Origin: Terriglobales bacterium
GTDB taxonomy: Bacteria; Acidobacteriota; Terriglobia; Terriglobales; Acidobacteriaceae
Length of the DNA stretch: 64,000 nucleotides
Assembly (NCBI GenBank): GCA_035651655.1
Contig: DASRFG010000025.1
Location: forward strand, 1 to 64,000
Direction: 5' to 3'
Numbering within the stretch: position 1 is the first letter of the stretch; each line of letters begins with the position of its first letter. Shown here piece after piece: positions 18,348 through 53,927 of this stretch. A model generated the notes under the pieces. That model was not told the DNA's origin and ran no database searches. It was given only the letters and a program-made list of their open reading frames with translations. Position numbers and translations under genes: made by a program.

Positions 18348-20714
18348 TTAGACTTCCACTTCTTTGTCGGCCGGAACTTCTCGTCGGCTTTCAAGCACTG
18401 AATTGAGGGTTCGCGAGTAACGGCCCAGAGTACCGGAGGTGAAAAGCGTATCTTCGGCAGGCACGATCAATTCCGGATGCGACGGCAGCGGCCCGGCAAC
18501 ATTCTCTTCTATGAATGTGTGCTGGTCGTTGCCTGCCATTACCCCCATACGCGATACCTCGTATCCCGGCACCAGGCGCTGGATTTCGTCCAGCATGGCG
18601 GTGGGATCCAGCGGGCTCACTTTGGGCTCGAGCCCGTGGGCCTCCAGCCAGACTGAATGCCGGTCGGACTCGCCCGATTGCGCGCCGCGCGACTGGCCCA
18701 GGTCCGCTCGCAAGGCTCGCCCAAACGGAACCAGGCGATGTGCATCAAAGCCCATCCGCTCCGCCACCCTCACGATCATTTCGAAGTCGCTTTTGGTGCC
18801 GGTCACGTCGCCGGCTTTTTTCACCAGCTGCAGATCGCCGCAAGTGTTGGTAAACGTGCCCGACTTCTCATACCCGCTCGCCGCCGGCAGCACCACCTGC
18901 GCCAGCATCGCTGTTTCCGTCAGGAACATGTCCTGCACCACCAGAAACACCTTTTCTAATGCAAACGGGTCTATGTTGTAGCGGGCAACCGGATTTGCTC
19001 CCACTACATACAACGCCTTGAGCCGGTCTCGTTTGGCGGCCTCCACCATCTGGCCCAGATCTAGGCCCGGGGCGCTGGGCACTTCGCCGCCCCATTCCTG
19101 ATGAAACTTCGTCCCCGCCGCGACCGGAATGTAACCCGGCAGCAGATCGGGATAGAGACCCATGTCCGCCGCGCCTCGCGAGTTAGCGTAGTCCGCCAAA
19201 CAGATGAACTTTGCGCCAGGAATCACCGACCCGAACCGCACCAGTGCAGCGATATCAGCGCCGCGCAACTCCGATCCGAAAATAATGACCAGGTTCTGCT
19301 CTCCACGCAGCTTGTCGCGCAGCGCGACCAAAGCGTCGCGCGTTGTTTCCCCGCTTACAATCGCATCCGCCGCGCCGTCATCTCCCGCCAGAAACTCTGC
19401 AGCTCTCCCCTCCGCTCCCGGCGGCAACAGCGTGAAGCTTGTCGCCTGTCGCCGCAATTTAATTGGATACGAGTTCATCACGTACAGCCGCGCCCGGTGT
19501 AACCGCACGTTGTTACGTATCTGCCACGCCAAAAGCGGATGTTGGTCGGTCGGCTTATTGCCAACCAACAAAATGGCCGGCGCATTGAACACCTCGCGCA
19601 TGCTCGCGGTGGTCTCTTTCTTTCCCGCGAGCGCACTCACAAATCCTGGGAAGTCTGTGGTGCGATGGTGATCAATATTGTTAGTACCAAGCACTACCCG
19701 CGCAAACTTCTGCAACAGATAATTCTCTTCATTGGTGGTGCGAGTCGAACCCACCACGCCAATCGCCTGCCCGCCGTCGCGCGCGCGAATCTCTTTCAGC
19801 CGCTGCGCGATCAGCTCGTAAGCTTCCTCAAAGGTCGCCGGCTCCAATTCGCCATTTTTGCGGATCAGCGGCTGCGTGATGCGGTCCTTGTGCTCGGCGA
19901 AATCAAACGCGTAACGCCCCTTAATGCACAGGAAGTCGCCATTGATACCGCCCTTGTCCCGATTGTCGCCGCGCACGATTTCCATTCCGGTCGATGCCCG
20001 CCGCACACCCAGTGTGGTCTTGCATCCATCGCCGCAGTGCGTGCAGATCGTACCCACGTGCTTCATCTCCCAGGGGCGCGTCTTGTACCGATACGCACCG
20101 GATGTGAGCGCACCGACGGGGCAGATATCTATGCACATGCCGCACTCTTCGCACTCCAAGTGGTCTTCTTTATTAGGCGCGATCACCGAAACTACGCCCC
20201 GGTTCTGCACCCCGAGCGCCCAAACGTCCATGCCCTCGCCGCACACCCGCACACAGCGATAGCACAAGATGCAGCGTGGCCGGTCAAAGAACACGACCGG
20301 CGACCACTGCTGCTCGTCTTTGTGGTTCTTGATCTCGATGAATTTTGAGTTTGCGGCCCCATAGGCAAACGTCATGTCCTGCAGTTCGCACTCACCGCCC
20401 GCATCGCAAACCGGGCAATCCAGCGGGTGGTTCGCCAGCAGCATCTCTAGCATGGACTTGCGCGCCTGCTTTACCTCTTCAATCTCGGTGCTGACCACCA
20501 TGCCATCGGTAATCGCCGTGGTGCATGCGGTCTGCAACTTCGGCATCTTCTCGATTTTCACCAGGCACATGCGGCAGGCGCCCTGCAAAGACAATCCGGG
20601 GTAGTAACAGAATGACGGCACCTCGATGCCCACACTCTTGCAGGCCTCGATCAGCAGCGTACCCGCAGGCGCCGTGACCTTCTTACCATCCACCGTGATG
20701 GTTACGTCAGCCAT
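18348..20714 (-). CDS. nuoG: NADH-quinone oxidoreductase subunit G
   Basis: 788-aa iron-sulfur subunit of the peripheral arm. The N-terminal 2Fe-2S domain (CYYPGLS...CRMCLV), the HPLDCPVCDAGGECELQD His-cluster region, two 4Fe-4S clusters (CILCYRCVRVC and CEECGMCIDIC) and the fourth CTHCGDGC motif are all visible. A molybdopterin-oxidoreductase-like domain without obvious cofactor role follows. No NuoI sequence is fused to it. The spacer to nuoF contains the ATTACCCGATT repeat family. Confidence 0.95.
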   Translation of the reverse strand: MADVTITVDGKKVTAPAGTLLIEACKSVGIEVPSFCYYPGLSLQGACRMCLVKIEKMPKLQTACTTAITDGMVVSTEIEEVKQARKSMLEMLLANHPLDCPVCDAGGECELQDMTFAYGAANSKFIEIKNHKDEQQWSPVVFFDRPRCILCYRCVRVCGEGMDVWALGVQNRGVVSVIAPNKEDHLECEECGMCIDICPVGALTSGAYRYKTRPWEMKHVGTICTHCGDGCKTTLGVRRASTGMEIVRGDNRDKGGINGDFLCIKGRYAFDFAEHKDRITQPLIRKNGELEPATFEEAYELIAQRLKEIRARDGGQAIGVVGSTRTTNEENYLLQKFARVVLGTNNIDHHRTTDFPGFVSALAGKKETTASMREVFNAPAILLVGNKPTDQHPLLAWQIRNNVRLHRARLYVMNSYPIKLRRQATSFTLLPPGAEGRAAEFLAGDDGAADAIVSGETTRDALVALRDKLRGEQNLVIIFGSELRGADIAALVRFGSVIPGAKFICLADYANSRGAADMGLYPDLLPGYIPVAAGTKFHQEWGGEVPSAPGLDLGQMVEAAKRDRLKALYVVGANPVARYNIDPFALEKVFLVVQDMFLTETAMLAQVVLPAASGYEKSGTFTNTCGDLQLVKKAGDVTGTKSDFEMIVRVAERMGFDAHRLVPFGRALRADLGQSRGAQSGESDRHSVWLEAHGLEPKVSPLDPTAMLDEIQRLVPGYEVSRMGVMAGNDQHTFIEENVAGPLPSHPELIVPAEDTLFTSGTLGRYSRTLNSVLESRREVPADKEVEV

Positions 20715-44875: not shown

Positions 44876-45646
44876 CTATCGCGCCACGCCTTCCAGCGGC
44901 GAGCTTGCGGTGGCATACAGCTTTTTGGTCATCCTGCCGGCGAGATAGGCCGTTCGTCCGGCAATCACGGCATTTTTCATGGCTTCAGCCATCAGCACCG
45001 GCTCCTGAGCGTTGGCGATGCCAGAATTCATCAGCACGGCATCGGCGCCCAGTTCCATGCCTATGGCCGCGTCGGACGCGGTTCCCACACCGGCGTCAAC
45101 AATCAGCGGAACACCGGTAATCATTTCGCGAAGGATGCGAATGTTGGCCTGGTTCTGGATTCCCATGCCGCTGCCGATAGGTGCGCCAAGGGGCATGACC
45201 GCGGCCGCGCCTGCATCAATCAGCCGCTTCGCAACCACAATGTCATCTGAGGTGTAGGGAAGAACGGTAAAGCCTTCCTTTACCAGGACGCGAGTCGCCT
45301 CGAGCGTCGCCTGCACGTCGGGATAGAGGGTGCGCTCGTCGCCGATCACCTCCAGCTTTACCCAGTCTGAAAGGCCTACTTCGCGCGCCAGGCGCGCGGC
45401 CCGAATGGCCTCGTCGGCGCTGTAGCACCCGGCAGTGTTGGGCAGCAGAAAGTATTTTTCCGCGTCAATGTAGTCGAGCAGCGATTCCTTGCTGCGGTCC
45501 AGATTCACCCGGCGCACGGCTACCGTCACCATCTCCGCGCCACTGGCCTCGATGGCCCGCGCAGTTTCCTGGAATGACTTGTATTTTCCGGTGCCGACGA
45601 TAAGCCGCGAGTGAAATTGCCGTCCGGCGATGACTAAGGCGTCCAT
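44876..45646 (-). CDS. thiG: Thiazole synthase
   Basis: 256-aa TIM-barrel enzyme that forms the thiazole phosphate of thiamine from deoxyxylulose 5-phosphate, the ThiS thiocarboxylate and dehydroglycine. Features: [10 protein letters not shown] start, the Schiff-base Lys in [25 protein letters not shown], and the phosphate loop ending [19 protein letters not shown]. No other thi gene is adjacent; thiS is at 27761. Confidence 0.95.
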
Positions 45647-45699
45647 GGGGGTATTGTAAGGGTAGGTTGGCGCTCAATTCCATAGAGCAGCCGGGTGAG

Positions 45700-46875
45700 C
45701 TAATGAGGCTTGGCCGAAGGCTTCGCGTCCACGGGCTTGGTATCCACTTGGACCGCCGATTTCTTGTCTGATTTTTTGGTATCCACCCAGACCGTAGTCG
45801 GCCCCGCGCCAGGGCCTGGGATCTGGATGGTCAGGGTTTCTTCAGTTCCGCCACTTAGGTTGGTGCGGACAATATCAATTGTCTTTTGCGCGGGCTGAAG
45901 GCCAAAGCTCGGATTTCCTAAATTGCGCTGCTCAACCTGTTCTTCGGTCTTCTGCTCGCCGTTGGCACCCAGCTGAGTTACGGTTGAGACACGCTGCTCG
46001 AGCCGCAAGCTGCCATCCGCCGCTGTCCCCGGGATGTTGCTCGAATATTTCTCTACTTTTTGCTTCTTCTCGCCAGCGGCCGCGTCCGATTTTGTGACCG
46101 TTCGCTCTACCACCGCCAGATTGCCATTGCCGTCCGGCCGCGAGACCCGTTCCTCTTTTGTGGTGTGCTTACCACCTTCGCTCTTGTCTTCTATGATCGT
46201 GCCTTCACGAATCTCATGCACTTGCCAGTTTCCGTCGCCGGCTTGCAACAAAGTTGATTTACGAAATTCGATGGTGTTGTCGTTCTTGCGGGTCTCGCGT
46301 TCTTGCGTCTTCACCGTGGGCGAAAAGCCGCCGTTAACGTCCGGAGAGGATACCGTCGTATTGGTCTCGCGCACGTCGCGGCTCACCTGCTTCGTCTCCC
46401 GATTCTCGCGAGTCACTACCTGCAGCCGATCCTGTAAATCCAGATTCGACGTGGTTCGAAATACCTTTTCATCGCCACCGGGTAGGCTGCGCGATTCTTC
46501 CTCGATTACGCGGATCAGCTTTCTCTCGCCCGTTGGGCCTCGGGCGAACACGCGCTCCACGGTCCGGGTGGTGCTGGCGTCCACTTTCGTGGACTCTTTT
46601 TCCGTATCGTAATAGGGGTGGTAGTGCCCTTCAGAATCACGGCCTTCTACTGTTTCTTTGTCAATAGTGCGTCCATTAATGAGGGTGTGGCTTTCCGTAG
46701 TGCGGGTCGGGTACAGGTCTCCAGAAACATTCTGTTGCTCGCGGGTGGCATGCCAGGACTTGGTGTCGTCACTTTGCGGGTCGGAAGGGGTTTGTGCCCG
46801 TGTGGTAACGGCAGAAAGGCACACCATTGCCGCTACCGCAGCCAGCAACGCCGATTTGCGGAGACCAGTGCCCAT
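45700..46875 (-). CDS. Exported hypothetical protein rich in charged beta-repeats
   Basis: 391 aa with signal peptide (GTGLRKSALLAAVAAMVCL). The mature protein is strongly hydrophilic, with recurring Arg-Thr-Val-Glu/Thr-Lys segments (TTRTVERVF, VVERTVTKSD, EQRVSTVTQLG) that look like an imperfect beta-rich repeat of about 30-40 residues. Thr, Glu and Lys are enriched. No family recognised. Confidence 0.7.
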   Translation of the reverse strand: MGTGLRKSALLAAVAAMVCLSAVTTRAQTPSDPQSDDTKSWHATREQQNVSGDLYPTRTTESHTLINGRTIDKETVEGRDSEGHYHPYYDTEKESTKVDASTTRTVERVFARGPTGERKLIRVIEEESRSLPGGDEKVFRTTSNLDLQDRLQVVTRENRETKQVSRDVRETNTTVSSPDVNGGFSPTVKTQERETRKNDNTIEFRKSTLLQAGDGNWQVHEIREGTIIEDKSEGGKHTTKEERVSRPDGNGNLAVVERTVTKSDAAAGEKKQKVEKYSSNIPGTAADGSLRLEQRVSTVTQLGANGEQKTEEQVEQRNLGNPSFGLQPAQKTIDIVRTNLSGGTEETLTIQIPGPGAGPTTVWVDTKKSDKKSAVQVDTKPVDAKPSAKPH

Positions 46876-46939
46876 GAGCTTCAATAAATGCTACACCAGT
46901 TAGCGGCAACCGGCGGCCTTCTTTTGCGGCAGAGAGGCC

Positions 46940-48721
46940 TCAAGACCTGGCTTCCAAAGCTGCCACCGCCGGCTCGGCATACATCTCCTCGATCTGACGA
47001 CGGTAGAGTTCCTCAATGCGGTGACGGCGCTGCTTCATGCTGGGTGTGAGGGTTCCATCGGCAATTGAGAACTCATTCGGCAGCAGCAAAAATTTCTTGA
47101 GCTGCTCGTAACGGGCGAGTCGGCGGTTTAAGTCTGCCACAATTCCTTCGTAAAGCGCGCGTACTTTGGGGTTCGCGACCAGTTCTTCCCGCGATGAAAA
47201 AGCTATGCCGTTAGCGCCTGCCCAATCCTCCAAAATCGAAAACTGCGGGACAATTACGACCGAGGGAAATTTCCGCCGGTCGCCCAGCACGACTGCAGCT
47301 CCTACCATCGGATTCAATATCAACGCCTTCTCTATGGGCTGGGGCGCGATGAACTTTCCGCCGGAGGTCTTAAGCAGGTCTTTCTTGCGGTCGGTTACCC
47401 TGAGAAACCCTTCATTATCGAGCGCCCCAATGTCGCCCGTCTTGAACCAGCCGTCCACAAAGGCGTTGCGCGTCTCTTCCGGTAGGTTCCAGTAGCCCTT
47501 AAAAACCGATGGCCCGCGGACGAGAATCTCCCCATCCTCGGCAATCTTTACTTCCACATTCTCCAGCGGCTTGCCCACCGTTCCCAGCTTGTGCGCCTGG
47601 GGATTGTTCAGTGCCATGATGGGGGACGTCTCAGTGAGGCCGTAGCCTTCGTCAATGCGAATGCCGAGGTCCGCAAACCACTCCCCGAGATCGCGGCCCA
47701 GCGGAGCACCACCCGAGAAAAAAATCCGACCGCGTCCGCCCATTCCTTTTCGTACTTGGGAATAAAGCAGAATATTCGCCAGCCTCCAGCTCAGCGACGA
47801 CGGCCGGCGGTCATTCAGTGTCTGGTCGCGATGCGCGTGTCCAACCTTTATTCCCCAGTTATAGATCGCTCGCTTCAACCCGCTGCGGGTCTTCTGCTGC
47901 ACTTGGGCATAGATCTTCTCGTACACCCGCGGAACGGCAACAAACATTGTCGGCCTGACCTCCAGCAGGGTTGCGGGCAACTGATCAAGGAACGAGCAGT
48001 ACGCAATGGTGATGCCATGATAGAAGCAGGAATAGTCCACGTGGCGCGCAGTTACGTGCGCTAGCGGCAAGAACGAGACATAAACGTCTTCCTCGGTGAA
48101 GGGGAATGAGCGCAACGAATACTCCACGTTCGAAGCCAGGTTGCCGTGCGTCAGCATCGCCCCTTTTGGTGTCCCGGTTGTGCCCGACGTGTAGATAATG
48201 GTGGCCAGGTCATCGGGCCCGATGCTCGCGGCTCGCTCATTGAGTTTGCCATCACGCTCGTGCGGCCCAGCGCTCATCAGGAGATGCATGGACGCGGCAT
48301 CTGTCCCACCGACATCATCCATGATCACGGCTTTTCGTACCTGGGTCTTATCTTTGATGGACAGAAACTTCTTCAGCTGGTCCGCCGTAGACACGAAGAT
48401 AACGCTCACGCCAGCGTCATTCAGGAGCTGCGCCGTCTGCTCCGAGGTCAAGGTGCAGTAGATCGGCACCACCACTCCGCCCAGCAGCAGGGTGGCAAAA
48501 TCCGCCACCGCCCATTCCACTCGATTTTCGCTCAGGATGGCGACCCGGTCGCCCTTACCTATTCCCTCGTCCTGCAGTGCGCGCGCCACTCCCGCCACCG
48601 CACGGTAGAACTCGCTGGATGAAATCGGGGTCCACTTTCCGGCTTGCTTGGAAAGCATGGCGTGGCCGGATTGCCGCTCCACTACCCGGTAGAAAATAGC
48701 GTTGACCGTGTTCAGACTCAT
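46940..48721 (-). CDS. Long-chain acyl-CoA synthetase (AMP-forming)
   Basis: 593-aa adenylate-forming enzyme that activates fatty acids with ATP and CoA. AMP-binding motif IIYTSGTTGTPKGAMLTHGN, then EGYGLTETSP and KTGDIGALDNEGFLRVTDRKKDLLKTSGG. The family is FadD15/FACL-like; chain length is not predictable. Divergent from the peroxiredoxin gene. Confidence 0.92.
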   Translation of the reverse strand: MSLNTVNAIFYRVVERQSGHAMLSKQAGKWTPISSSEFYRAVAGVARALQDEGIGKGDRVAILSENRVEWAVADFATLLLGGVVVPIYCTLTSEQTAQLLNDAGVSVIFVSTADQLKKFLSIKDKTQVRKAVIMDDVGGTDAASMHLLMSAGPHERDGKLNERAASIGPDDLATIIYTSGTTGTPKGAMLTHGNLASNVEYSLRSFPFTEEDVYVSFLPLAHVTARHVDYSCFYHGITIAYCSFLDQLPATLLEVRPTMFVAVPRVYEKIYAQVQQKTRSGLKRAIYNWGIKVGHAHRDQTLNDRRPSSLSWRLANILLYSQVRKGMGGRGRIFFSGGAPLGRDLGEWFADLGIRIDEGYGLTETSPIMALNNPQAHKLGTVGKPLENVEVKIAEDGEILVRGPSVFKGYWNLPEETRNAFVDGWFKTGDIGALDNEGFLRVTDRKKDLLKTSGGKFIAPQPIEKALILNPMVGAAVVLGDRRKFPSVVIVPQFSILEDWAGANGIAFSSREELVANPKVRALYEGIVADLNRRLARYEQLKKFLLLPNEFSIADGTLTPSMKQRRHRIEELYRRQIEEMYAEPAVAALEARS

Positions 48722-48891
48722 TCCGGGGCCTGTATTTTCCGTATTTTGCGGCGAGCGTTGGATGAAAACTGTATGGAGAAGACTTTACTGTTAGAACGGT
48801 GTCTTCGGCAACCGCAACTCCGGTCACCGCAGTAACCATCGTTGACTGCCGTTTCTTAAAAGATTAAGCTCGGCGCTTGAAGGACTTGCCT

Positions 48892-49503
48892 ATGAAAAAA
48901 CAGCTTCTGATAATGATGGGCTGCATTTTGGCCACCGCTTTTATGCAGCCGCAGTTCTCAGCCCAGCTGCTCGCTGCTCAAAAGAAGGCCAACACGAAAC
49001 CAGAGAAAGACCCGCCGCTCAGGCTGAAAGTTGGAGACTCCGCCCCTGACTTCACCTTGCTGAGCTTCGACGGCAAGGACCTGAAGAAAGTGTCGTTGCA
49101 CGAGTTCCGGGGCAAGAAAAATGTGGCCTTGGCATTTTATGTTTTTGCATTTACCGGCGGTTGAGCCAAGGAAATGAAGGCTTTCCAGCAGAATATTGGC
49201 AAGCTGGAAGCCGCCGACACCCAGGTTCTGGGTGTGAGTATGGACAGCCCCTTCTCGAATTTTGCTTTCGCCCAACAAACCGGCGTCAATTTTCCCCTCT
49301 TGGGAGACTGGGGTGGGGAAGTCACCCGCAAGTACGGCCTCGCCAAGAAAGAGGACGTTGACGGTGTTTCCATGGAAACCGCCCGGCGAGCCACCTTCCT
49401 CATAGACAAGTCGGGCAAGATCATCAACGAGCAGGTGGATAGAGAGGCCGTCGATCCGAGCAAGACCGTCGAGGCGTGCGAGCGCCACGGTCACAAGAAC
49501 TGA
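48892..49503 (+). CDS. Selenocysteine-containing peroxiredoxin (predicted, exported; in-frame TGA at 49162-49164)
   Basis: 203 aa if the TGA is read as selenocysteine. An N-terminal signal peptide (MKKQLLIMMGCILATAFMQP) precedes a peroxiredoxin domain: VGDSAPDFTLLSFDGK, FYVFAFTGG, then TGA (Sec91), AKEMKAFQQN and the C-terminal RRATFLIDKSGKI with the conserved Arg. In the AhpC/Prx5-like family TxxC holds the peroxidatic Cys; here T88-G-G-U. The frame is otherwise uninterrupted on both sides. Cys196 near the end could be the resolving residue. AAGGA is 7 bp before the ATG. If read as stop, the product would lack its active site, so a dead gene is the alternative. Confidence 0.85.
49165..49212 (+). 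promoter_or_regulatory. Candidate bacterial SECIS element
   Basis: 49179-49189 (GGC, U bulge, UUCCAGC) pairs with GCUGGAAGCC (49203-49212): ten pairs with one bulged U. The 13-nt apical loop (49190-49202) starts A-G, meeting the rule that one of the first two loop bases is G. The loop begins 25 nt after the UGA, inside the 16-37 nt range of the published bSECIS model as I recall it. A weaker GGAAA/TTTCC helix (49170-49186) competes. Confidence 0.7.
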
Positions 49504-49552
49504 GAGTTAGTTCTGCCAGTGGTCAGTACTGAGCCCAGGGAAGCACCTGGTG

Positions 49553-50581
49553 TTAACCTCGTGCTCCTTCCTGGCTTTGGTGGTGAATCGCCGGTTCAAA
49601 CACCGCCTTCATCTTCTCGAACGGAATGTTTCGCCCGCAAAGAAGCGGCACCACCTTCTTTCCCGAGTAAGCCGACTTCCGCTTCAGCAATGCCGCAACC
49701 GCCACACCGGCGGCCCCCTCTACCATCCAGCGCTCGTGGCGCAAGATCAGGTGCATGGCATCCACAATTTCGCGCTCCGAGACCAACACAAAATCGTCAA
49801 TCAACTCGCGGCAAAGGTCTACTGTGATCGCGCCATCCTCCACACCGCCCGCAGTGCTATCAGAAATCGTCGGCTGCTCGGGAAAATCAATCACCCGTCC
49901 GGCCTTGATGCACTCATACATCACCCGTGAATTTTCGGGCCAGCATCCCACGACCTTCACTCCCGGTTTTACCGACTTCAGATAGCTGGCCATTCCCGAA
50001 ATCAGGCCACCGCCACCCACTGCGACAAACACCACGTCCACGGAATCAAGCTGCCGATAGATTTCTACCCCCAAGGTGCCTTGTCCGGCAATCACTTGCG
50101 GGTCGTTGTATGGCGAGATGAAGACTTGGCCGGTCTGTCGTGAGATCTCACGCGCATGATTCTCGGCGTCTACCGGATTATCGCCGTAGAATTCCGCCTT
50201 CCCACCAAAGGACTTGATCAGAGCGACCTTATCGGGGGAGGCGCCACCCTTCATGTAAATGGTGGGAGTCAGACCGCGTTTTTGTGCGGCGTAGGAGACT
50301 GCCATGCCGTGGTTTCCCGTGGAAGCCGCAACAATGCCTGCCTTCAGTTGCTCAGGGGAGAGCGAGAAAACCTTGTTCATCGCACCCCGCAATTTGAACG
50401 ATCCCGTGTGCTGCAGGTGCTCTAATTTGAGGTAAACCTCGCAGTTCGCGGCGTCGCTCAAATAGGCCGAAGGTTCGAGTGGAGTTTCCCGAATGTGTGG
50501 GCGGATCAACTTCTCAGCCTGTAAGACGGCTCTTACCAGATGGGAAGAGCTACCGCTGGGATTAGTCTGCGCGACCGCCAT
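49553..50581 (-). CDS. Threonine dehydratase-like PLP enzyme (no ACT domain)
   Basis: 342-aa fold-type II PLP enzyme. The Schiff-base Lys is in HTGSFKLRGA, the phosphate loop AVGGGGLISG, and the Asn-type ASTGNHGMAVSY motif follows. Without a C-terminal regulatory domain it resembles catabolic threonine dehydratase or serine/threo-hydroxyaspartate dehydratase; the biosynthetic IlvA form would be longer. Substrate undecided between these. Confidence 0.88.
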   Translation of the reverse strand: MAVAQTNPSGSSSHLVRAVLQAEKLIRPHIRETPLEPSAYLSDAANCEVYLKLEHLQHTGSFKLRGAMNKVFSLSPEQLKAGIVAASTGNHGMAVSYAAQKRGLTPTIYMKGGASPDKVALIKSFGGKAEFYGDNPVDAENHAREISRQTGQVFISPYNDPQVIAGQGTLGVEIYRQLDSVDVVFVAVGGGGLISGMASYLKSVKPGVKVVGCWPENSRVMYECIKAGRVIDFPEQPTISDSTAGGVEDGAITVDLCRELIDDFVLVSEREIVDAMHLILRHERWMVEGAAGVAVAALLKRKSAYSGKKVVPLLCGRNIPFEKMKAVFEPAIHHQSQEGARG

Positions 50582-50895
50582 GCCGAAAGTGTAATAGATT
50601 TCACACCGCTTGTAGGGTTCGCCTAGCCAGTCAGCGCGCCGAGATCCGGCCCGGTACGACCCACCTTCCGAGGGGCTGCATAGTTTCTGTTGGCAGAATC
50701 GCGAAATTGCCCTAAGCTGTTAGGGAACATGGCAATAGGGGTTTCCGCCGGTCAGAAAAATCTTGACATTCCGAGCTGCAAAGGCGTAAATCCAGCGGGA
50801 CTGTTGCAAGGGCGCAGGTGAATTCTCGGTTGCCCTCTAAGCGATTAGGAAATTTCCCTTGATGAGCCATCCGGCATGGATGCGAGTCAACGACA
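50582..50895 (+). promoter_or_regulatory. iol operon control region with twin LacI-type operators
   Basis: TTGACA (50763-50768) and GTAAAT (50786-50791) are 17 bp apart. Two near-identical dyads flank them: CCCTAAGCTGTTAGGG (50710-50725) and TAAGCGATTA (50838-50847) within CTCTAAGCGATTAGGA. Centres are 125 bp apart, close to 12 helical turns, so repressor looping is possible. The TAA-n-CG-n-TTA core suits LacI-family proteins, and one is encoded in the operon. The first 120 bp of the gap hold nothing else I can see. Confidence 0.65.
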
Positions 50896-51933
50896 ATGGC
50901 CAAATTAGGTGTAGGGGTGGTTGGGGCCGGGCGCATGGGAAGATGCCATGCTGAGAACCTGCGTTCCCGCATCCCAGAAGCGAAACTGATTGCGGTTGCC
51001 GACGTGGATCTGGAGGCTGCGCGTCGTCTGGCCGCGGACCTTGAGATTGAGCACTCCTATCCCAGCGTCGAGGCCTTGGTAGAACGCAAAGATATCGACG
51101 CGGTGGTTATCGCCTCGCCGTCAAAGTTTCACTTGGCTGCGGTCGAGACCGCCGCTGCAGCTCGCAAGCACATCCTGTGCGAAAAACCGCTGGCCATGAC
51201 CCTGGAAGGGGTTGATGCCGCCATAGCTGCCGCCCGCAAAAGCCACATTGTTCTGCAGGTCGGGTTCATGCGCCGCTACGATCCCGCTTACAGTGAGGCC
51301 CATCGCCGGATCGAAGCGGGAGAGATCGGAACACCCATCATCTTTAAGGCAATTGGCCGCGATCGCGAACCGCCCCCACTCAGTTTTTATAAGTCGGGCA
51401 GCGGCACGTTGTTTCTGGATTCCACCATCCATGAGTTCGACCTCGCGCGATGGTTGATGCGCGATGAGGTGCTGGAAGTGCATGCCTTTGGCGGGATGCT
51501 GGCCAATCCTGAGATCGCCAAGCTGGGTGAACTGGACGCGGGAATCGTGAATCTGCGGTTTGAGGGCGGCGCCATCGGCAACGTCGAATCGTTCCGGCAG
51601 AGCCGCTACGGATACGACATTTTTACAGAAGTGGTGGGATCAAAAGCCACCCTCCGCATCGGCTATCTGCGCCAGACCGCTCTCAGCGTGTTGACCGCGG
51701 ATGGAGTGAGCCACGACGTTGTGGACCACTTCCTGGTGCGGTTCGCCGACGCCTACTTGAACGAGGTGCGTGATTTCGTACAACGGATTTTGGCGGAGAA
51801 GCCGGCGAGCGTAACCGGAGAGGACGCGCGCAAGGCCCTGGCAATTGCATTGGCAGCCGATGCTTCTCAGCGACAGTCGCGTTCGGTGTTAGTGCCACCG
51901 CAGATGCAGACGGAGATGGCGAATTCCAGATAA
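50896..51933 (+). CDS. iolG: Inositol 2-dehydrogenase-like oxidoreductase (Gfo/Idh/MocA)
   Basis: 345 aa. N-terminal Rossmann motif GVVGAGRMGRCHAENL, CEKPLAMTLEGVDAA with the catalytic Lys, then the C-terminal domain with DSTIHEFDLARWL, whose Asp/His are the usual substrate-site residues. It oxidises myo-inositol to 2-keto-myo-inositol with NAD+. First gene of the iol operon; no clear ribosome site before the ATG. Confidence 0.9.
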   Translation: MAKLGVGVVGAGRMGRCHAENLRSRIPEAKLIAVADVDLEAARRLAADLEIEHSYPSVEALVERKDIDAVVIASPSKFHLAAVETAAAARKHILCEKPLAMTLEGVDAAIAAARKSHIVLQVGFMRRYDPAYSEAHRRIEAGEIGTPIIFKAIGRDREPPPLSFYKSGSGTLFLDSTIHEFDLARWLMRDEVLEVHAFGGMLANPEIAKLGELDAGIVNLRFEGGAIGNVESFRQSRYGYDIFTEVVGSKATLRIGYLRQTALSVLTADGVSHDVVDHFLVRFADAYLNEVRDFVQRILAEKPASVTGEDARKALAIALAADASQRQSRSVLVPPQMQTEMANSR

Positions 51934-51938
51934 AACTT

Positions 51939-52841
51939 ATGACGATTCGGGCAGCTAGCGCACCGGTGAGCTGGGGGATTATGGAATCCGTACCACTTCC
52001 ACCTGAATACCCCTACACACGTGTGCTGGACGAAATCGCACAAGCCGGCTATGCCGGGACCGAGCTCGGCCCCTTTGGTTTTTTGCCCAGCGACCCTTCC
52101 GCCTTGCAGAAAGAATTAGAGCGCCGAAAATTGACCCTGTGCTCGGCATTCATTGCCTTCGAGTTGGCGAACGCCGAAGCTCTCAAGCCAGGTCTTGAGC
52201 AAGTAGAGCGAACCGCGAAACTCTTGAATGACCTGGCGTGCCATCTTCTGATTCTTTCCGATGAGATTACCGCCGAACGCTCGGCGGTCGCCGGACGCGC
52301 TTCGAAGACGCAGCAGCACTCCTACACCGAGAAAGATTGGCGTCAAGCGAAACATGCCATCACTGAGGTGCTGAATATATGCGGCAAGTTCGGTTTGCGT
52401 CTCGCTTTCCACCATCACGCCGGCACTCATATAGAGACGCCTGAAGAAATTGAGCACCTGTTCTCTTTATTTGCTCCGAACGATCTGGGCTTGTGTCTCG
52501 ACACCGGGCACTGTGTTTTCGGCGGCGGGGACCCGGTCGCGGTGCTGGCTCGCTACCTGGACCGCCTGCGCTGTCTGCACTTGAAAGACATTGACAAGAA
52601 ACGCCTGGAAGAAGCCCGCGACAAGCGCCTGGACTTTTACGCTGCCGTTCGACGGGGAGTATTTGCTCCTTTGGGAAAAGGTGTCGTGGACTTTCCCGGC
52701 ATCTTGCAGGCTATCGGCAAAAACGGGTTTGATGGCTGGGTTGTGGTTGAGCAAGACGTGCTTGCTGGTGGACGCAATGCCACTGCGCCCTTGGATAATG
52801 CAGTTGCCGGACGGACCTTTCTAAAAAAACTAGGAGTTTGA
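51939..52841 (+). CDS. iolE: IolE-like 2-keto-myo-inositol dehydratase
   Basis: 300-aa TIM-barrel of the sugar-phosphate isomerase/epimerase superfamily. Motifs APVSWGIMES at the start, FHHHAGTHIETPEEIEHL, CLDTGHCVFGGGDP and HLKDID give the metal-binding His/Glu/Asp set of IolE. It follows iolG by 5 bp. Confidence 0.88.
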   Translation: MTIRAASAPVSWGIMESVPLPPEYPYTRVLDEIAQAGYAGTELGPFGFLPSDPSALQKELERRKLTLCSAFIAFELANAEALKPGLEQVERTAKLLNDLACHLLILSDEITAERSAVAGRASKTQQHSYTEKDWRQAKHAITEVLNICGKFGLRLAFHHHAGTHIETPEEIEHLFSLFAPNDLGLCLDTGHCVFGGGDPVAVLARYLDRLRCLHLKDIDKKRLEEARDKRLDFYAAVRRGVFAPLGKGVVDFPGILQAIGKNGFDGWVVVEQDVLAGGRNATAPLDNAVAGRTFLKKLGV

Positions 52842-52844
52842 AAA

Positions 52845-53927
52845 TTGATGATGAGTTTTCTCCAAACGGCTGCAGTGCTGGCTCAACCCGAAACATTTAA
52901 CCCGGAGAAGTCGCTGCCGCTCAGCCTGTTCGACCAGATCACCGAAATTCGCGTGCATCATCCCGAGATTGTTGAACGCGAGGCCCGGCGCCGCAAACGG
53001 CGTTCGCGGTTGACCGCTGATGGAAAACTGGCCCTGGTGGCGGCAGACCATGCGGGACGCGGCGTCACCAAAATTCGCAATGATCAACTTGCCATGGGTG
53101 ACCGTTACCAGTTGCTGGCCCGGGTTCGCCGCCTGCTGGAGGACCCAGGCCTGGACGGCATTCTTGCTACTAGTGACCTGATTGACGACCTGCTCATCCT
53201 TTCCCATTTGGAGCGCGATAAAAAGGGCGGCGGATTCCTTGATGGCCGCGTACTGGTGGGCAGTATGAACCGAGGTGGCCTTTCCGGTACGGCGTTTGAA
53301 ATGGACGATACCTTCACCGGCATGACCGCTGAAGGTATCGCCCGACTGCGCTGCGATGGCGGGAAAATGCTGTACCGCCTGGATCCTCAGGATCCGGCTT
53401 CGGGCCGAACCATCCAGGCTTGCGCCGAAGCCGTGAATGCACTGCGCCGCCATAAACTTCCCGCCTTTGTCGAAGCGCTTGAGGTTAAACGCGGGGCAGA
53501 TGGCTATCACACCATTCAGGACGCTGCCGCTTTGGTGCGGCATTGCGGAATTGCAGCCGCACTGGGCGAATCGTCCGCTCACGTTTGGTTGAAGCTCCCG
53601 TACGTGGAGAACTTCGCACGCGTTTGCCGTTCCACAACCTTGCCCATCCTTCTTCTTGGCGGACCAGCCCGCGAAAGCCCAGTCGAGACCCTCAGAGACT
53701 TCGCTGCGGGACTCAGTTCCAGCCCCCGCGTCCGTGGAGCGGTGATTGGGCGCAATCTACTTTTTCCCCAGGACCGTGATCCGCTGCCGATGTGCCGCGC
53801 ACTTACGGCACTGATTCATCGCGGCATCAGCTTCGACCAGGCAGTGCAGCTGCTGGAGAGCAACGTTCCTGTACTGGTTGCTCCCCGATCCAACGGCAGT
53901 GCGTCCCGCCGGAGGCGGCAACAATGA
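52845..53927 (+). CDS. Cgl0159-type class I aldolase-like barrel protein
   Basis: 360 aa, (beta/alpha)8-type. The segments LALVAADHAGRGV, LDGILATSDLIDDLL and RVLVGSMNRGGLSGTAFE, with EALEVKR (candidate Schiff-base Lys region) and WLKLPYVENF, resemble the uncharacterised barrel proteins next to inositol genes in actinobacteria. By position it may replace IolJ, which cleaves 2-deoxy-5-keto-gluconate 6-phosphate; that is inference. The stop overlaps iolC by 4 bp. Confidence 0.8.
   Translation: MMMSFLQTAAVLAQPETFNPEKSLPLSLFDQITEIRVHHPEIVEREARRRKRRSRLTADGKLALVAADHAGRGVTKIRNDQLAMGDRYQLLARVRRLLEDPGLDGILATSDLIDDLLILSHLERDKKGGGFLDGRVLVGSMNRGGLSGTAFEMDDTFTGMTAEGIARLRCDGGKMLYRLDPQDPASGRTIQACAEAVNALRRHKLPAFVEALEVKRGADGYHTIQDAAALVRHCGIAAALGESSAHVWLKLPYVENFARVCRSTTLPILLLGGPARESPVETLRDFAAGLSSSPRVRGAVIGRNLLFPQDRDPLPMCRALTALIHRGISFDQAVQLLESNVPVLVAPRSNGSASRRRRQQ

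Follow-up and report, generated by a model that had tools for sequence, protein, structure and literature searches.

The DNA analysed here, which we refer to as the window, is a stretch of 64,000 nucleotides from a Terriglobales bacterium, and the gene of interest occupies positions 48892-49503 of its plus strand. The translation, a Pfam match and the homologues together identify it as a predicted selenocysteine (Sec)-peroxiredoxin gene, which encodes 203 residues if an in-frame TGA is read as Sec. Its 203 codons contain this one in-frame TGA (49162-49164, residue 91) and are followed by a terminal TGA stop at 49501. The Pfam AhpC-TSA domain (PF00578) is matched as a single domain, at residues 47-178, with an E value of 2.3e-32 when the TGA is read through, and a Shine-Dalgarno-like AAGGA (48880-48884, plus strand) can be read directly in the sequence 7 bases 5' of the ATG. 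Thus, two claims of an earlier sequence-only reading hold: the peroxiredoxin frame is uninterrupted except for the TGA at 49162, with the AhpC/TSA match spanning both of its sides, and a ribosome site is present.

The remaining features all lie on the same strand. Approximately residues 1-29 (48892-48978) form a likely signal peptide with MKKQ, a hydrophobic core and a cleavage point between LAA and Q that we placed by eye rather than with a predictor. The active-site motif T-G-G-U (T88-G-G-U91, 49153-49164) ends with the TGA, and a predicted SECIS hairpin follows at 49179-49212, based on folding, on a stem shared by close relatives and on covariation in distant ones. Farther along are Arg166 (49387-49389), which is invariant in alignments and is presumably the active-site Arg of peroxiredoxins, and Cys196 (49477-49479), a candidate resolving Cys in the last helix that is invariant in 25 aligned members of the subfamily.

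The gene is flanked by two minus-strand genes, an acyl-CoA ligase-like gene (AMP-binding, 46940-48721) upstream and a gene for a PLP-dependent enzyme (49553-50581) downstream. Comparison of the neighbour genes in the window and at 41 loci shows three clusters that recur in at least 3 loci. The first is the divergent acyl-CoA ligase-like gene, found in the window and in L123-L126; the second, TetR-like by eye, lies between the ligase-like and peroxiredoxin genes in L123, L125 and L126; and the third (L154, L163 and L166) may be a spurious frame. The association with the ligase-like gene possibly reflects shared ancestry alone, and no electron donor is suggested by the recurring clusters from these 41 loci and the window.

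The TGA falls at the position of the catalytic residue of the family. Searching 396 genomes of the phylum at the protein level (E 1e-20) yielded 96 matches in 87 genomes, and in the alignment of these homologues the column of the window TGA, which is that of the family's peroxidatic Cys, holds TGA in 72, Cys in 24 and anything else in none. A second in-frame TGA within the matched stretch is found in 0 of the 96 homologues; L058 and L119 have a TAA or TAG, located at the extreme ends of the matched stretch. Scanning of named genomes retained at least 80 loci; L160, L169, L177 and L192, whose matches contain stops or long extra stretches, were excluded from the tree and from the second folding test. 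The named set comprises, among the matches listed, 76 loci, 52 with TGA and 24 with Cys. The best 32 named loci among the matches listed (L120-L151) belong to the Acidobacteriota, judging from titles or tree labels, and lower rows include other phyla; the best two of those listed are 74% and 73% identical to the window gene, and these relatives point to Acidobacteriota as the phylum of the window too. TGC occupies the site in two relatives from the subfamily of the window gene, L142 (Candidatus Sulfopaludibacter) and L154 (an Acidobacteriales MAG), and these two, along with the 72 TGA and 24 Cys homologues, bear out the earlier proposal that the TGA stands exactly where homologues have their peroxidatic Cys.

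The TGA and Cys forms were placed on a tree of 172 rows (124 TGA, 48 Cys) from which the site column was omitted. On this quick tree, which has 58 open forks, at least 8 switches between TGA and Cys are required (4 if only starred branches are counted), compared to 42 with shuffled labels, and the window gene lies inside a starred set of 31 rows, all 31 with TGA. The genome has a second peroxiredoxin, of cytosolic type (L089, G000:C30:39073-39489), which has Cys (TGC) at the site, and L110, the sister of this gene in a related genome, has TGA; since the tree places L089 and L110 in a set of mostly TGA rows, a replacement of Sec by Cys in the L089 lineage is suggested.

If the TGA is decoded as Sec, the genome would be expected to encode the Sec machinery. 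Indeed, selA, selB, selD and selC (tRNA-Sec), for which the sequence-only reading had proposed a search, are all found in the window's genome (4.07 Mb in 39 contigs, with a completeness of 99.8%). The scores are 558 bits for selA, 358 bits for selB and 361 bits for selD, and the tRNA-Sec gene lies at C10:6064-6157 (66.8 bits; named tRNA-SeC with anticodon tca by ARAGORN). The tRNA-Sec model gave 17 matches, 2 of them above the cut-off, and ARAGORN, which was run on 3 of the 17, names the second tRNA-Ile.

That reading had also advised looking for further ORFs containing TGA, and four such genes of known selenoprotein families are present. The selD gene (L020, G000:C24:84020-84976) has its own in-frame TGA, reading AAGUASKLSP, and three formate dehydrogenase-like genes (L200, G000:C17:4002-4772; L201, C1:220617-221390; L202, C23:84751-85482) have one in-frame TGA each, before His, in ARVUHGPTV, ARVUHGPTV and ARIUHSSTV, respectively. 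We take this VUH or IUH context to be the usual Sec site of FdhA; the separate pieces of L200-L202 all score below the model cut-off. Because the peroxiredoxin gene, selD and these three genes hold in-frame TGAs, candidate selenoprotein genes of known families number at least five in this genome. A fourth formate dehydrogenase-like match, on the minus strand of the window at about 18738-20051, has no in-frame TGA. When the window was scanned for further frames interrupted by TGA, 72 candidates emerged, 6 with little overlap with long ORFs; none of these six resembles a known family by eye, and the overlap filter would hide the peroxiredoxin gene as well, so the window may hold further TGA genes.

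Across the phylum, the TGA form and the Sec machinery tend to occur together. The selA gene is found in 61 of the 65 genomes with a TGA peroxiredoxin, compared to 252 of 396 genomes overall (Fisher P = 1.9e-9, a value that is a guide only because the genomes are related). The four TGA-peroxiredoxin genomes lacking selA (G140, G226, G266 and G314) are 72-91% complete. Among eight named genomes of unstated completeness, selA is found in 4 (3 of 6 with TGA and 1 of 2 with Cys).

The RNA immediately 3' of the TGA is also distinctive in the TGA genes. Folding of the 17 codons 3' of the TGA was compared with that of 100 synonymous recodings per gene, and the mean z is -1.60 in the 72 TGA genes, but -0.11 in the 24 Cys genes; for six other stretches the mean z lies between -0.09 and -0.46 in the TGA genes and between -0.13 and -0.75 in the Cys genes. 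Similar results are obtained with the named set, in which, among the matches listed, the mean z is -1.17 for 52 TGA genes and +0.23 for 24 Cys genes; in these listed TGA genes the next stretch past the hairpin also has a mean z of -0.75. The z of the window gene is -2.09, and the nine genes of the window's subgroup range from -1.22 to -2.94. At the corresponding place in the Cys relatives L142 and L154, the hairpin is not predicted.

In the window fold, 49179-49189 pairs with 49203-49212, with one bulged U and a 13-base loop. A 7-pair core of this stem (49182-49188 with 49204-49210, from RNAalifold) is paired in 97.3% of cells in 16 close relatives, and its covariation in these 16 sequences is weak (0.193 versus 0.150 when shuffled, with 12 of 500 shuffles as high and one two-sided pair). 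In 39 relatives from other families, the corresponding position has a shorter stem, which is paired in 81.5% of cells, with 30 two-sided cells; its covariation is 0.258 versus 0.123 when shuffled (0 of 500 as high), a slid register reaches at most 0.114, and its 6 two-sided pairs are equalled by 30 of 500 shuffles. The TGA genes that do not belong to the window's subgroup number 63; 13 of these and 11 of the cytosolic kind were excluded beforehand, leaving the 39 sequences, for which RNAalifold gave no consensus pairs. In the window's own subgroup, covariation of the bulged window stem is not above that of shuffles (0.053 versus 0.058, n = 9; 0.079 versus 0.081, n = 16), and a register slid by one base scores more (0.269 and 0.222). 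An Rfam scan of 45000-53000 at E values up to 1 reported no SECIS family; the one match in that interval, to Cgb105 (18.9 bits versus a gathering score of 163), we consider a chance match. The excess folding in TGA but not Cys genes and the covariation in the 39 relatives support a SECIS-like stem-loop directly 3' of the UGA.

The sequence beyond the TGA appears to be maintained as protein. In comparisons of the window gene with seven relatives, pN/pS 3' of the TGA is 0.21-0.49, with synonymous sites near or at saturation, and in the same seven comparisons pN/pS for residues 41-90, before the TGA, is 0.12-0.27. These ratios indicate that the part downstream of the TGA is under purifying selection and is translated. 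Genome-wide reassignment of TGA to a standard amino acid would equally leave the frame open, but it can be practically discounted, since TGA ends 14 of the 41 ORFs of at least 200 codons picked in the window, and the code is therefore not reassigned; the peroxiredoxin gene itself also terminates with TGA, and the genome encodes a specific tRNA-Sec plus SelA, SelB and SelD. Scarcely more credible is a pseudogene or a sequencing error, in which TGA would have replaced an ancestral Cys codon, leaving a dead gene. TGC to TGA is a single-base change and the standard code reads TGA as a stop, but the same column holds TGA in 72 of the 96 phylum homologues and in named relatives, and its conservation across separately sequenced genomes disfavours this explanation, as do the purifying selection on the downstream half and the Sec machinery in the genome. 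The earlier judgment that random decay is unlikely is therefore upheld by the recurrent TGA and by the selection downstream of it. Based on the Sec machinery, the TGA/Cys column, the excess folding after the TGA and the purifying selection, we conclude, in agreement with the sequence-only reading, that the window gene almost certainly encodes a selenoprotein with Sec inserted at the peroxidatic site.

The TGA homologues differ in their anatomy. Among the matches listed, the 125 TGA homologues are of two kinds, with 102 and 23 loci. The 102 loci of the first kind, to which the window gene belongs, have, among the matches listed, a Cys 95-110 residues past the Sec; they come from 60 of the 396 sampled genomes and at least 41 named loci, and they have 95 distinct C-terminal ends, some loci being one gene from two collections (e.g. 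L046 and L136). A hydrophobic stretch after a basic start is found in 94 of these 102 listed loci. Three residues before the Sec, 99 of the 102 listed have Thr and 3 have Ser, and seven residues before it (U-7) the listed loci have Val in 67, Pro in 30, Ile in 3, Ser in 1 and Thr in 1; the window residue is Val84. The second kind, among the matches listed, has no C-terminal Cys in any of its 23 loci, Pro at U-7 in 21 and a signal-like N-terminus in 2. Among the matches listed, only two of the 51 Cys homologues, L142 and L154, have the C-terminal Cys. In a 25-member alignment T88, U91, R166 and C196 are invariant, and in most TGA subfamily rows the matched stretch has no Cys besides C196. Six Bacillota loci (L171, L176, L178, L180, L193 and L196) form a tight TGA-peroxiredoxin group with FYPLDWTPVUGAQMPSY and without a signal-like N-terminus.

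The window protein, judged by its N-terminal sequence, is very likely exported to the periplasm, and we propose a catalytic cycle for it there. SelB and tRNA-Sec would insert Sec at the UGA at 49162, guided by the hairpin just downstream, and the protein would move to the periplasm, where the selenolate would reduce peroxides and become a selenenic acid. From the C-terminal helix, Cys196 could then resolve this acid as a selenylsulfide, either inside one subunit or across two, and a thiol reductant of the periplasm would regenerate the enzyme. In an AlphaFold2 model (pLDDT 90.6), U91 lies close to where a helix begins, and C196 is part of the last helix.

The least certain claim of this mechanism is the resolution of the oxidised Sec by Cys196, to which, from sequence conservation, we give an even chance. 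The main rival to it concerns the catalytic cycle and not Sec insertion: the protein would be a true selenoprotein of the 1-Cys (1-Sec) type, in which an outside thiol reduces the selenenic acid directly and the role of Cys196 is a different one, for instance structural. A 1-Sec enzyme would be consistent with the presence among the nearest folds of AhpE, whose title names it a 1-Cys peroxiredoxin, and with the ~100 residues of chain that separate U91 from Cys196 in the last helix. However, Cys196 is invariant in 25 of 25 aligned members and is the sole other Cys in most TGA subfamily rows, and a C-terminal Cys is lacking in the 23 second-kind TGA loci among the matches listed. We therefore consider the 1-Sec type a real but tentative alternative, somewhat short of an even chance.

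Resolution by Cys196 also forms part of a broader reading, which we hold to be about evenly balanced between right and wrong, that the Acidobacteriota have a widespread, mainly Sec-based subfamily of exported peroxiredoxins that cycle through a selenylsulfide in the periplasm by means of a last-helix Cys and have a relaxed requirement for the active-site Pro. As part of the same reading, Sec may be the default in this subfamily and Cys rare, given 102 TGA loci versus 2 Cys loci among the matches listed. If so, these bacteria would have a selenium-based system outside the cytoplasm that is dedicated to peroxide defence. L142 and L154, compared to their Sec neighbours, offer a natural test of the benefit of Sec over Cys in an exported peroxidase. 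A gene caller that stops at TGA would yield frames of 95 codons and 109 codons here, and no NCBIfam model reaches its cut-off on the window gene; such genes may therefore be annotated as truncated or broken. In many Acidobacteriota, misannotation of this type would hide both an enzyme of peroxide defence and a need for selenium.

The characterised Sec-peroxiredoxin is PrxU of Eubacterium acidaminophilum. The window gene is set apart from PrxU by model score (70.5 bits versus a cut-off of 270 for NCBIfam NF040737); the features of the window subfamily that we set beside PrxU, the signal-like N-terminus, the Cys 95-110 residues after the Sec and the frequent Val at U-7, may be shared by PrxU. 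Among solved structures, the closest folds include Mycobacterium tuberculosis BcpB (Z 24.1) and AhpE (Rv2238c; Z 22.4-23.0 at 34-35% identity) and Sulfolobus Bcp1 (Z 23.7) and Bcp4 (Z 23.3), with PrxQ also among the relatives (Z about 23-24), and the closest by sequence profile are 2ywn, Bcp-4 and AhpE. AhpE, BcpB, Bcp1 and Bcp4 are Cys enzymes, to which the likeness here is one of fold and, for AhpE and Bcp-4, also of profile.

Sec-containing peroxiredoxins had been given in the sequence-only reading as known from some bacteria, and passages of PMC13188914 do treat them (PF00578, TxxU) as an established family, with reference to an E. acidaminophilum paper. Excerpts from two censuses give 12 such proteins in 2006 (PMC1794560) and 91 in 2016 (PMC5029168). 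The excerpt from the 2006 census gives four selenoproteins for Acidobacteria (PMC1794560), and a passage on deep-Sep gives three for the one Acidobacteriota genome tested (PMC12013277). In the literature covered, which consists of titles, abstracts and passages with few subscription journals, we found no description of an exported Sec-peroxiredoxin subfamily of Acidobacteriota. The Sec-bearing, peroxiredoxin-type Prx-SUH thiol peroxidases (NF045827) are a related family, but differ from the window gene in their CxxU motif (passages of PMC13188914) and in score, at 45 bits for the window gene versus a cut-off of 298. The window gene shares with the Sec-peroxiredoxin family, as passages of PMC13188914 define it, the AhpC/TSA domain, the peroxidatic Sec and TxxU, but has Val84 in place of the Pro that starts PxxxTxxU and that the same passages describe as highly conserved. 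Because U-7 varies within its subfamily, we consider the window gene a variant of the Sec-peroxiredoxin kind and not a standard member: it is a gene of a known selenoprotein kind, within a subfamily that has its own anatomy.
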